Below, piece after piece: positions 58,101 to 63,796 of a stretch of 64,000 nt of DNA. The notes beneath the pieces were generated by a model. That model saw only the letters and a list, made by a program, of their open reading frames with translations. It was not told where the DNA came from and did no database searches. Made by a program: the position numbers and the translations under genes. This DNA is from Branchiostoma floridae (lineage: Eukaryota > Chordata > Leptocardii > Amphioxiformes > Branchiostomatidae): the NCBI RefSeq assembly GCF_000003815.2, contig NC_049994.1:12970382-13034381 (forward strand), read 5' to 3'. Every line of letters begins with the position of its first letter. Position 1 is the stretch's first letter.

Positions 58101-60897
58101 GACAGAGGCTGCTGGCAAGCTGCCATCTATGTGCTAGCACACCTAACCCTCATCCAACGGGGAAAAACAGGCAATAAACACAATAGAGTGAGTGATACCT
58201 CACCTACCAAGAAGGAAATCCACTCTGGGATTGTACAGGCTAAAATAGATATCTTCAAAGATACATTTGTATACACAAAATACAGACCTCCTGTACTGCT
58301 AGTTTGATCTTGGCCTTCATCCTGTGAATGCGCTGGCGTTGCTCCTGTACTGTAGTCTCCAGCTCCCGGCACCTCTGGACTAATGTCTCCTGATTGTCCT
58401 GTAGGAGCTGGACTTCACTTCTGTGCTGACGTTCCTTCTCCGTCTTCTTTCTGTCTAAAGTCTGGACAAACAGAAAGTCGCAAGGGAGGGCACAGGATTA
58501 ATTGAGTACTGTAAATGCATTTAAGTTTGCAGGGATTTACCCGGTAGCGGGAAAAAGGACTCTTCGCGGTGGTTTTAAGTTCCCGGTAACACGACAGACT
58601 ACAGTCTAATACCATAATAGAAAAATGTTTGCAGTGGTTTTAAGTTCGCGGTGAAGTGGTCACCGCGAAAACTGCCAACATGAATCAACCGCGAACATTT
58701 CTGTAGAAGACATACACAAGTAAAGCAAGTACAACACATACTACATATGGTACATGTAGTTGTTACTTTTTTATTATTGTACGTGTGTTGAAACTCTACC
58801 TTAGCCATAGCCTGTGACTCCATGAGCTGTTGTTGTAGCTGCTGAAGTTGTTGTGATGGCTCTGCTGCTGCTGTGGATGTCCTTCCAGTCTTCTCTCTAC
58901 AATACACAAAATCACAGAATACTTTTTAGTCAACCAAACTTTATCATGCATATATACGTACTAGTACTAGTACCCCTGACTTTGACCTAGAAGTGACAAT
59001 GTGACAGGTTTGTCAAATTTCAAAGGGGGAGCAATGTCAGTGCAATCTTTAACGTTGTTGGCCACAATAAGCGTGATTTGATAAAGTCAGCGTCCTGCTA
59101 CCTTCCTATATTAAATTTCTACACAACTGAACAGTACTACCAACATTCCTCATCCATCCCTTGATAGCCCCAGACACAGGCTACTCACTTGAGCTGGTTG
59201 TTGGTGAGGATGAGGTCCTGGATGAGGACCTGACGTCGGTCACAGTCCTGTATCAGGCTCTTGAGGCTGTCCCGTAGTGACTGGGCTGTGGCTCTGTCAA
59301 GCACTGTCACATCTACATTGATACAATACATAGTTACACATCATTAGACAGACTTTACAATGTCACAATGTTATACTTGCTGGTTACGTAGCTGACTTTG
59401 CATCTGCAGCGCTATACGACTGTTACTCTGTATGTGGACATGTATTCACCATAGACAAGATCTTTGTAATGTGTCAAACTCAAAAAAGTCAAAGGCAAGA
59501 ATTGACTATAGGGACTTGAGACCACCAGAAGTGGTAGTCATATTGACCCTTGTGTAGGGGTGGTCACAAGCTTCTACAGATTTGATTGTATGTGGATAGA
59601 AACCCAGCGTTATTGTTCTACATTCCATGACGCAGTAAATGGCCAACAACACACCTATCACTGTCAACCATGGCTTTGTTATGACCCAGTTCAGCAACAT
59701 GCTTATATGTAACACACCTGCAGACAGTGCCCCATGCCCAGGCTGTACAGGAACAATGACTGGGAGACCGTGCTCCTTCAGTAGTAGGTTCACCTCACTC
59801 CAGGGGGTCTGAAATTAAAACAATAGATTCTTAAGAGCTGTATGTAAAAGTGGGGGGTTGAAGTAGTGCTAAATGATCACACCAAACGGCTGTCAGGCTT
59901 TTGGCTCGATCAGTTAGACCGCTGGTGTTGTGATCCTAAGGACCCGGGTTCGATTCACGGGTCGGTCGGGATATTTGTATATATTGTTTCTTTCTGTTCT
60001 ACTCGCCCCTCTGACTTCTTACATTGGCGCCCGACGTGGCCCTGGTGGATAACAGGCCAGAGATGTGCCTGCCCACAGGGTGCTCGAACTCGGAGATTCG
60101 AGGACGAATCTTGAGAAGAAGAGGGGGAGTAGTGTAACAGTGGGGGGTTGAAGTAGTGCTAAATGATCACGCCAAACGCCTGTCAGGCATTTGGTTCGAT
60201 CAGTTAGACCGCTGGTGTTGTGATCCTAAGGACCCGGGTTCGATTCACGGGTCGGTCGGGATATTTGTATATATTGTTTATTTCTGTTCTACTCGCCCCT
60301 CTGACTTCTTACATGTATGAGAAAAAATTAAGAAGAGTACAAGAAGATAGACAACATCCATACAACTTATAAGCATTACCAGGATCACCCACGTACTGAC
60401 ACATAGACATAGATGATTTTGTAAGTGCATCTAGGGCATGACAAGTGAGTTAAGTGGGTTCAGAGTTTGTATTTCAAATGCTTTTGAAAATGAATGATCA
60501 TCCATGTTTTGTTTTGTTTTTGTCTAGCTCATATTGTTTTACAATAGAATGTTATATAGTCCAAAAAATTCTATATTCAAAGAGGCGATTGTAAAATCAG
60601 TTACAGTAAGAGTCAAAGTGGAAAATGCTTTTGAATTCGTTAACTGATGCTCGAGCTACAAAATAATGCTAGTTGTAATCAAAGGACTTTCACTTTTAAT
60701 TACCTAATGTTACACAGTAGTCTGTTATTTTCTTCAGTTCTACAAACATGGCAAGAACATTCAAATATAGTACGATCTGGGATGTGGAGGGAATTCTTTG
60801 TCACGAAGATCCTGTTTTCAGAAAGTTATTGGTCTAAACAACTCAGTTTCAAGTACAGAGTTTGAACTTGGTACAGAAAAGAAAACAATACCTCCAT
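52125..60897 (-). CDS. CEP70: Centrosomal protein of 70 kDa (17 coding exons, complete)
   Basis: Coiled-coil centrosome protein that in vertebrates binds gamma-tubulin and helps organise interphase microtubules, the spindle and cilia. Exons in order: 60892-60897, 59718-59808, 59189-59312, 58800-58896, 58288-58461, 57593-57678, 57344-57428, 56800-56909, 56170-56247, 55671-55779, 55168-55266, 54532-54687, 54016-54174, 53326-53497, 52911-53025, 52438-52517, 52125-52183. Every junction is GT-AG and phases join without error, giving 599 aa (human 597). Seen: N-terminal WSEVNLLLKEHGLP; Gln/Glu-rich heptad-like coiled coil over about residues 33-290; the strongly conserved HFQKLFDVP at 475-483 followed by VRMNQVYSRLGEM; and the C-terminal IVPAVRALKLLS. 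The first coding exon supplies only Met-Glu; an in-frame TAA lies 24 bases upstream of the ATG. AATAAA (minus) lies at 51983-51988, about 140 bp past the stop. An N gap (56312-56411) falls inside an intron. Confidence 0.95.
56312..56411. other. Assembly gap (100 N)
   Basis: 100 N within a CEP70 intron (56248-56799). The splice phases on both sides agree, so no exon needs to be hidden here. Confidence 1.
56601..56777. mobile_element. MITE copy 2 (CCGGGGCCC family) in a CEP70 intron
   Basis: Same family as 8968-9134: it begins ttccaaaccggggcccagcc and ends gggccctggtttggaa. The right end is 22 bp from the CEP70 exon at 56800-56909, on its donor side, so it lies close to a splice site without touching it. 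Confidence 0.75.
57892..58095. mobile_element. Long-armed fold-back MITE in a CEP70 intron
   Basis: Arms of about 80 bp are inverted copies: ACCCCCCTCACATTA at the left against ACACCCCTCACATTA at the right. Both include ttcgat.ggacgac.agtct and tacgaggaggcatgaccctg. The spacer is about 45 bp. No firm target duplication is seen. Confidence 0.75.
58507..58706. mobile_element. MITE with tactgtaaatgc / ttcgcggt repeats in a CEP70 intron
   Basis: The left end tactgtaaatgcatttaag is loosely inverted at the right (cgcgaacatttctgtag). Internal copies of gtggttttaagttc and an exact palindrome ggtcaccgcga/cgcggtgaagtggtcaccg are seen. It resembles a common dispersed family; its class is uncertain. Confidence 0.5.
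59902..59956 (+). promoter_or_regulatory. Pol III A-box/B-box-like segment in 5' LTR of the TRIM
   Basis: TGGCTCGATCAG (A-box-like, 59902-59913) and GGGTTCGATTC (B box, 59946-59956) lie at tRNA-like spacing, with a T-arm-like stem (CCGGG...CACGG, one mismatch). The anticodon stem does not pair well, so this is a tRNA-derived head rather than a working tRNA gene. Confidence 0.65.
60192..60246 (+). promoter_or_regulatory. Pol III A-box/B-box-like segment in 3' LTR of the TRIM
   Basis: This is the second LTR copy of the same tRNA-like segment: A-box-like TGGTTCGATCAG at 60192-60203 and B box GGGTTCGATTC at 60236-60246. The B box is identical between the LTRs. Confidence 0.65.
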
Positions 60898-62052: not shown

Positions 62053-62099
62053 GCCAACCTTAGGCCCTGTGAATAGAGAAACAAGATTCCAATATCACC

Positions 62100-63796
62100 A
62101 TGGCAACACGACTACTCCGTATTCTCCACCTAAGACATCAGGCGTTGTCTCTCTGGAAAGGACCGCCAGGTTACATGAACAGGACTCTTCTGTTGGGAAG
62201 ATTACCCAGTAGCACTGTATCAATGGTCCACAGTCAGCATACAGATGTAGAGAGTGGTGTAGTCACAGCTGAAGGCTCGCAAACGACAGACTTAGAAACT
62301 GAGAGGTTCACCTTGGAGACAAGGTTAAGAAATGCGCAGAGTCCCGAAGACGTCTGGAAGGAACTGAACGAAGAAGGCATGACCGGAGACAATGCAGTTC
62401 TCGCTATCTCCAAGTTGAATGGCTTTACACAAACCATGAAGGAGGGGGGAGTCACAAATGATGCTATTCTCCAAGATCCGAACTTCCTAGTCCTGTGTAA
62501 CGTTGCTAACAACAGCGTGACTAAGATGTTCACCGGTAGCGTCCTTTCAATGCTCAGAAACTTGCTACAGATCGGTATGAACCCAGAGAGCAAGATAATC
62601 AAATCCTTGGAGACTGAAATCCGATGGCGCATGCGCCGACTGAACATCTACCATCTCTGCTTTCTCGCGCAATTCCCCATGCACGATGGATCCGCCACGG
62701 AGAGTCAGAAAGAGCTCATGAGCGAGGTGTTGCGGAATCTGGACATGCGCTGGACCGAACTCCGTGAACCACGGTCCGTCGTACAGCTGATGGCAAGCGT
62801 GGGTCACCTGTCCACAGGGTTGATGGAGAGGTTAGAAGACAAAGTGCTAGAGATGGCGGAACAACTCACACAAGAGGAGACAGCAAGAGTGCTGCAGGTC
62901 TTAGCCAATCGGGGCAGGCGGACGGTACCGCTACTCCGGGCTCTGGCCTACCACCTGTCCCGGCGACAGTTTCGGCTGGACCACAACGTCGCCTCCACCA
63001 TCGCGTACGCTTTCGCCAGCCTGAACTTCCCGAACACCGCCGTTCTGCAGAAGATGTCGTCAGAACTCGTGGAGCAGGTGCCTGAACTGAAGCCCCCCAC
63101 CCTCATCAGTTTTGCCAAGTCCTACTCCTACCTGAAGTGGCACCACCAGCCACTCGTGGACACCATGGCTGCTTACCTCACAACAAACCTCAAGTTTCTG
63201 TCGGAAGAACAGGTCAGAGCTTTGGGATTTGTTCATTTTCCCCCTGTCTATTAATCACGATCAAATATATCTATCTATATCTCCCCCAGACAGCTGCGGA
63301 CTTCTGGATTAGATTTTATCGGAAGTACCATTAGACTAATCTCCCCAAGCAGNNNNNNNNNNNNNNNNNNNNNNNNNNNNNNNNNNNNNNNNNNNNNNNN
63401 NNNNNNNNNNNNNNNNNNNNNNNNNNNNNNNNNNNNNNNNNNNNNNNNNNNNACAGCAAGATCTGCTTGGAGATTACCAATAGACTATTTTGAATGACTG
63501 ATATGTATGTACAGCCAAATGGTGATCTCCAACCATGTGTGGAAAAGCAAAATGGAAACCTGTGTCAATCTCCTGATTATGTGGAGCAGAAAGGCACACA
63601 GGAACTTGAGAAAATGATTTTTCCACATCTGCTTGGACTTGGAGATAAGGGCAACTGTTAAAGCATATTGTTAAAGGCTTGTTGTTATTCATCTATTCTT
63701 ATATTTTTTTCTACATCCTCTCAGGTGGCAAACTTTTTGCTGGCATTTGGAAGGCTGAACTTCACTCCAAGCAGTGCAGATGAGTTTTTTGATCAG
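62100..63796 (+). CDS. TBRG4: FASTK-family mitochondrial RNA regulator TBRG4/FASTKD4 (5' part, runs off window)
   Basis: Mitochondrial RNA-binding protein that in mammals stabilises and processes a subset of mitochondrial mRNAs. Coding exons seen: 62100-63212 (371 codons, phase 0, donor GTCAGA) and 63725-63796 (24 codons, donor GTAACA); the rest lies beyond 64000. The N-terminus is Arg/Leu-rich with no acidic residues for about 45 aa, as in a mitochondrial presequence. Landmarks shared with human FASTKD4: EIRWRMRRLN, RWTELREPR, VGHLSTGLMERLEDK, RRTVPLLRALAYHL, and LLAFGRLNF in exon 2. The helical-repeat N-terminal region is present. The FAST_1, FAST_2 and RAP domains would be encoded mostly downstream. 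The ATG has a strong context (caccATGG), and an acceptor ending at 62052 implies a 5'UTR intron. The intron at 63213-63724 contains an N gap. Confidence 0.93.
63325..63500. repeat. Inverted repeat around an assembly gap in the TBRG4 intron
   Basis: ctaatctccccaagcag just left of the gap is inverted as ctgcttggagattacc just right of it, with further related blocks near 63520 and 63630. It is probably an inverted-repeat element whose centre was not assembled. Confidence 0.5.
63353..63452. other. Assembly gap (100 N)
   Basis: 100 N within the TBRG4 intron, at the centre of an inverted repeat. Confidence 1.

Follow-up and report, generated by a model that had tools for sequence, protein, structure and literature searches.

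The window analysed here (the whole stretch of 64,000 nucleotides from Branchiostoma floridae) contains two direct repeats, at 59843-60024 and 60133-60314, that are 97% identical with a start-to-start spacing of 290. To the base, they form an element with the layout TGTA, 181-bp long terminal repeat (LTR), 109-bp interior, 181-bp LTR, TGTA, and the following features were assigned to it (related loci in the genome are designated by L numbers):

59839..59842, + strand: left target-site duplication (TSD) TGTA, from the sequence and sister copies
59843..60023, + strand: 5' LTR, 181 bp, TGTAA...TTACA, from the repeat comparison, with an equal unit in sister copies
59899..59902, + strand: TTTT adjoining the A box (LTR positions 57-60), present in 56/58 near-full LTRs
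59902..59913, + strand: A-box-like segment TGGCTCGATCAG (LTR 60-71), from box scoring
59947..59957, + strand: B-box-like segment GGTTCGATTCA (LTR 105-115), from box scoring, A-to-B spacing 45
60024-60132: interior, 109 bp, with first bases TTGGCGCCCGACGTGG and last bases GAAGAAGAGGGGGAGTAG
60025..60039, + strand: primer-binding site (PBS), 15 nt pairing with the CCA end of tRNA-Lys(CTT) with one mismatch (G for A), from the tRNA-Lys fossils in sister copies
60094..60111, + strand: pre-PPT hairpin AGATTCG-AGGA-CGAATCT, from comparison with relatives
60115..60132, + strand: polypurine tract (PPT) GAAGAAGAGGGGGAGTAG, 5' of the 3' LTR, from the PPT-LTR junction pattern in the genome
60133..60313, + strand: 3' LTR, 181 bp, with six substitutions relative to the 5' LTR
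60314..60317, + strand: right TSD TGTA, from the sequence and sister copies

These features support the identification of the window element as a miniature LTR retrotransposon (TRIM) with LTRs, PBS, PPT and a 4-bp TSD. The original prediction had placed the 181-bp LTRs, their ends, the PBS, the PPT and the TGTA duplication correctly to the base. A one-base spacer separates the 5' LTR from the PBS. The six substitutions between the LTRs fall at LTR positions 6, 39, 47, 57, 63 and 148, and the 3' LTR has ATTT in place of TTTT at LTR 57-60. As predicted, coding capacity is not evident, the longest stop-to-stop frame over the element being 88 aa (59848-60114). Two open frames flank the insertion, one of 102 aa beside it (59506-59814, - strand) and one of 393 aa on the other side (62073-63254, + strand); each may be an exon, and no Pfam match was obtained for either.

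Copies of the family in the genome

In the search of the element's own genome (513,431,437 bases in 431 contigs), scoring 40 of 701 candidates yielded at least 55 matches, and many of these span query positions 5-475 of 479. The element is a repeat with genome copies far beyond chance. We fetched 39 places, and the comparison of TSDs and LTRs comprises the 16 rows in which both LTRs are near-complete, including the window copy; the remaining rows were truncated, tandem or solo. Exact 4-bp TSDs were present in 14 of the 16 near-complete copies (the exceptions are L009 and L010), and six of them (L009, L011, L012, L017, L020, L025) have identical LTR pairs. Since L025 and L026 have a common TSD and near-identical flanks, they are alleles of one insertion, and 4-bp TSDs thus occur in 13 of 15 insertions. 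L025 is located on an unplaced contig (C245) and L026 on a chromosome (C1), where L026 reads N at the site of the tRNA-Lys insert described below for L025. Among five solo LTRs, a 4-bp TSD was found in three, one has a flank reading N, and one has no TSD. Both the full copies with target duplications and the solo LTRs that the original prediction proposed to search for are therefore present. This TRIM family is recently active; the insertion at the window, previously called fairly recent, is so in a relative sense, as the two LTRs are identical in six of the 16 copies and the window copy has six substitutions. The LTR pairs of L014 and L018 agree up to approximately position 66 (except position 17 in L014) and differ beyond it, a pattern that resembles a different R-U5 source for one LTR.

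Related copies (e.g. L051, L052, L063, L065 and L071) retain the same LTR ends, interior and U5 block and differ in the tRNA-like module, and 4-bp TSDs were found in 7 of 10 checked copies with other modules. The primer site is also exchanged, as a Lys site replaces a second type of site within the otherwise common interior of related TRIM copies; this second type we take to correspond to tRNA-Glu and call Glu-type. Pattern searches of the genome identified 320 PPT-LTR junctions, 292 Glu-type sites and 36 Lys-type sites (zero for each of the three patterns in the reversed-pattern control), the PPT-LTR and Glu-type places amounting to 100 each among the matches listed. In 11 of 13 sampled Glu-type places, the PPT is no more than 150 bp from the PBS; it is about 950 bp away in L075, and L077 has no PPT. 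The Glu-type copy L075 has an interior of about 950 bp.

A tandem pair of tRNA-derived SINEs, instead of an LTR element, would account for the presence of both box motifs (A and B) in every unit and for the tandem units at some loci (L023, L036). We consider this reading extremely improbable, because a tandem SINE pair is ruled out by the constant LTR-interior-LTR order with TSDs, and the 181-109-181 arrangement is accompanied by PBS, PPT, solo LTRs and tRNA primer fossils. A tRNA-derived SINE is a single unit without LTR, PBS or PPT, whereas the window element has all three. Since full copies and solo LTRs exist, the family consists neither of single 181-bp units only nor of plain tandem SINEs, the two outcomes named beforehand as contrary to the prediction.

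Copied primer tRNA and the choice of primer

Reverse-transcribed tRNA-Lys is preserved beside the LTR at four sister loci (L025, L032, L050 and L053), two of which (L025 and L032) have the complete LTR-interior-LTR structure. In L025, 73 bp separate the LTR from the PBS, and 71 nt of these correspond to the complement of tRNA-Lys(CTT) with 68 matching positions (three mismatches), a stretch that begins at the CCA end and extends to roughly nt 6; the insert is also a tRNA match in Rfam (45.5 bits). The L032 insert matches the tRNA-Lys complement in 51/51 nt and reaches nt 26. In L053, 23/24 nt match tRNA-Lys up to nt 53; the next 17 nt repeat the end of the LTR, and ATAT bounds the entire insert on both sides. 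In L050, a T-arm piece is joined at GCTC to a D-arm/acceptor piece that ends at tRNA nt 1. None of the four tRNA-Lys genes fetched (three of which ARAGORN recognised) encodes CCA, and therefore the CCA complement in the inserts derives from mature tRNA. The CCA end with 29 nt has 7 matches in the genome, and among these only the two at TRIM loci include the CCA complement.

The four fossil loci are new, direct evidence of tRNA-Lys priming, and they demonstrate that this TRIM family is primed by tRNA-Lys and replicates with strand transfer of the retroviral type. Plus-strand strong-stop DNA normally stops at m1A58, and when the tRNA is unmodified copying continues as far as the end of the molecule (PMC13191261). 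A comparable product is the cloned MMLV circle with a copied primer tRNA (Colicelli and Goff 1986, as cited in PMC12220202); in both cases plus-strand synthesis past the usual stop copies the primer tRNA, but the products described here are germline TRIM insertions.

We detected no autonomous element carrying the Lys site. With up to one mismatch, ATTGGCGCCCRACGTGG has 36 matches in the genome, 35 of them in TRIM-matching loci, and the remaining place (C13:14923540) did not match the LTR and matched the interior over no more than 16 nt (E below 0.1). The sequence TGGCGCCCAACGTGGGGC, again with up to one mismatch, has four matches, which are three TRIM tRNA fossils and the same place on C13, with no autonomous element among them. 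Neither L048 nor L049 matches the TRIM LTR, and inspection of L048-L050 revealed no long Gypsy frame. Since an autonomous Lys-site element was not found, these searches suggest that the TRIM may have changed its primer by itself; alternatively, its helper may have a diverged site or be absent from the assembly.

A candidate helper and the source of the RNA

The original prediction envisaged a longer Gypsy element sharing LTR ends, PBS and PPT with the TRIM. A search with the Gypsy integrase domain gave at least 128 matches (150 of 174 candidates scored), and the 24 surrounding loci inspected include one, L079, that carries the TRIM PPT-LTR. At this locus, 1,467 bp of Gypsy sequence from a family designated GyA (97.8-99.1% identical to five GyA copies) are joined to the TRIM 3' end through TCCCAC inside the PBS. 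One GyA copy has LTRs that are 99.8% identical, start with TGTAAC and are flanked by the 4-bp TSD CTGC. In this copy, the Glu-type primer site T/TGGTTCCCACACCG precedes a motif that resembles the one in the Glu-type TRIMs (26 bp, 84.6%), and the PPT-LTR junction reads GAGGGGGAGGTAG/TGTAAC. Altogether, GyA and the TRIMs have in common the LTR ends, the Glu-type site (present in the TRIM relatives), the pre-PPT hairpin, the PPT and the TSD length. The anticipated partner is thus matched by a Gypsy family with common LTR ends, related PBS type and PPT, but not in the LTR bodies, between which blastn detected no similarity apart from the ends.

The hairpins of the TRIM and GyA have an identical AGGA loop and two compensated stem pairs, and at least 6 Watson-Crick pairs are kept at 45 of 55 TRIM junctions. 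Plant Gypsy elements have a motif like this hairpin. Gypsy loci fetched with 1.5-kb flanks mostly end short of the PPT. An AGGA-loop hairpin just 5' of the PPT was observed at L103:845-872, L106, L100 and window positions 60094-60111, that is, in two Gypsy families and the TRIMs, with compensated pairs distinguishing the stems. The GAGGAC word with a stem was counted in 10/70 cases versus 6/419 for control words; this count is inflated by one non-PPT Gypsy site in seven copies and proves nothing by itself.

From these common traits we infer that the helper is probably GyA or a relative, a case that rests on the Glu-type relatives because no autonomous element with a Lys site was found. L079 could be a genomic deletion, and the corresponding reading, in which the helper is not GyA and a chance deletion joined a Gypsy copy to a neighbouring TRIM, falls only a little short of an even chance. 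The junction is single-copy among the best 40 of 303 candidates scored, the join has 6 bp of microhomology, and the chimera is 5'-truncated, a 5' LTR being absent from the 3.8 kb of upstream sequence retrieved. Moreover, the third Gypsy end, L100, has an AGGA loop (on a different stem) and a TGTAAC start, and these traits therefore extend beyond GyA. Against a chance deletion, the join lies inside the TRIM PBS, the natural end of minus-strand DNA, and GyA shares the Glu-type site and its following motif with the TRIM relatives.

The predicted tRNA-like Pol III promoter is a sequence resemblance, consisting of the A- and B-like boxes at their spacing of 45, and the A box is variable. The window A+B score (14/17) was equalled by 28/500 shuffles for the 5' LTR and 27/500 for the 3' LTR, and it is therefore weak by itself. 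L009 and L017 score 15/17, reached by 2/500 and 0/500 shuffles, and relatives score 15-16 of 17. ARAGORN identified no tRNA in the 64-kb window, Rfam matched no tRNA in 59800-60360 at E values of up to 10, and the sister LTRs had only sub-threshold tmRNA matches in Rfam (13-19.6 bits versus a cut-off of 47). In the main subfamily, 56/58 near-full LTRs carry the TTTT next to the A box; it is absent from the Glu-type copies L072 and L073. Linkage between LTR sites, used to map R by recombination, showed no clear minimum at 45-63.

Transcription by Pol III from the tRNA-like module is plausible, mainly by analogy with Helenus and Cassandra, and we would put it somewhat above an even chance. The element may instead be an ordinary Pol II-transcribed TRIM whose tRNA-like segment, without a promoter role, is left over from a captured SINE or resembles a tRNA by chance, which we consider possible though somewhat less likely than not. 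This reading would fit the conservation along the LTR, where the A box is among the more variable parts (158/170 windows are as conserved or more), the B box is unremarkable (57/171), and the U5 block and the 5' end are most conserved. It would also fit the shuffles that equal the window score, the fold of the module, which is on a par with that of shuffled sequences (z -0.28), and the T5 run (TTTTT) between the A-like and B boxes of L063, a young copy with LTRs 98.9% identical. In contrast, A and B boxes at tRNA-like spacing recur in differing modules, each matched by no more than 5/500 shuffles versus 281/500 for the GyA LTR control. Ten of 11 related elements have no T4 run between the A boxes, an outcome that 8-41% of shuffles also yield, and the argument from T4-run avoidance is weak.

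In the mechanism that we propose, a Ty3/Gypsy element would supply its enzymes in trans and copy the TRIM RNA; a host tRNA-Lys would anneal just 3' of the 5' LTR, where reverse transcription would start; plus strands would start at the PPT; and integration would create the 4-bp duplication. This account of a gene-less TRIM is in our view highly probable as a whole. The helper would be a GyA-family Gypsy or a relative and, more tentatively, Pol III would produce the RNA from the tRNA-like module. A more specific scheme appears unlikely in its entirety. Here the TRIM lineage would use tRNA-Lys, as no autonomous host element was found to do, its own PBS having changed from the Glu type of the helper; Pol III would set the RNA ends, with a start just upstream of the A box, a stop at the TTTT adjoining the A box in the 3' LTR and a very short R; and the helper would recognise the pre-PPT hairpin and not the LTRs or the primer.

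Comparison with Helenus and Cassandra

A TRIM with a tRNA-type module in its LTRs has a precedent and already has a name. Helenus (TRIMp3), named by Kojima 2024, is a TRIM with a tRNA-derived LTR segment reported in six animal phyla, with PBS and PPT, a 4-bp TSD in animals, a Gypsy-like PBS, tandem arrays and primer changes (PMC10886601). Our assignment is by structural features, and the named Helenus families were set beside the element by description. The window element is likewise a short non-coding two-LTR TRIM with a PBS after the 5' LTR and a PPT before the 3' LTR, and the 4-bp TSD agrees in the near-complete copies and in those with other modules. Its LTR module, a candidate for the tRNA-derived segment of Helenus, has box motifs at the scores given above and no window tRNA in Rfam or ARAGORN. 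For the likely Gypsy helper of Helenus, the candidate here is GyA with its common traits and one chimera, and no Lys-site Gypsy was found. Kojima expected but did not prove Pol III transcription of Helenus, and inferred the priming and Gypsy dependence of animal Helenus from PBS similarity (PMC10886601). The methods, results, discussion and tables of that paper do not describe preserved tRNA cDNA, tRNA modules that are exchanged while the interior stays constant, a Lys site that this assembly shows on TRIMs only, or a candidate Gypsy that has the hairpin in common with the TRIM. The main text of Kojima 2024 contains neither 'Branchiostoma' nor 'lancelet', and its Table 1 lists none (PMC10886601). 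No amphioxus report of such TRIMs was found in the literature searched, whose scope excluded subscription journals and Repbase.

The family belongs to a known kind, and the evidence that it provides on how the element replicates is unusually direct. It offers relics of a replication intermediate in the form of copied primer tRNA, it has in GyA a concrete candidate linked to it by a hairpin that co-varies and by one chimera, and in this assembly its primer site was found on TRIMs only. How a helper recognises a TRIM with unrelated LTRs, and whether a TRIM can switch its primer independently of its helper, become testable.

Cassandra, as described in PMC10886601, is a plant TRIM with a 5S rRNA promoter in its LTRs. 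It resembles the present family in carrying a small-RNA promoter-like segment there, but the segment is of the 5S type in Cassandra and of the tRNA type here, with no 5S match in Rfam for the window or the sister LTRs. As a minor observation, L023 and L036 are tandem LTR-interior-LTR-interior arrays, and tandem arrays are known for a zebrafish Helenus (PMC10886601).
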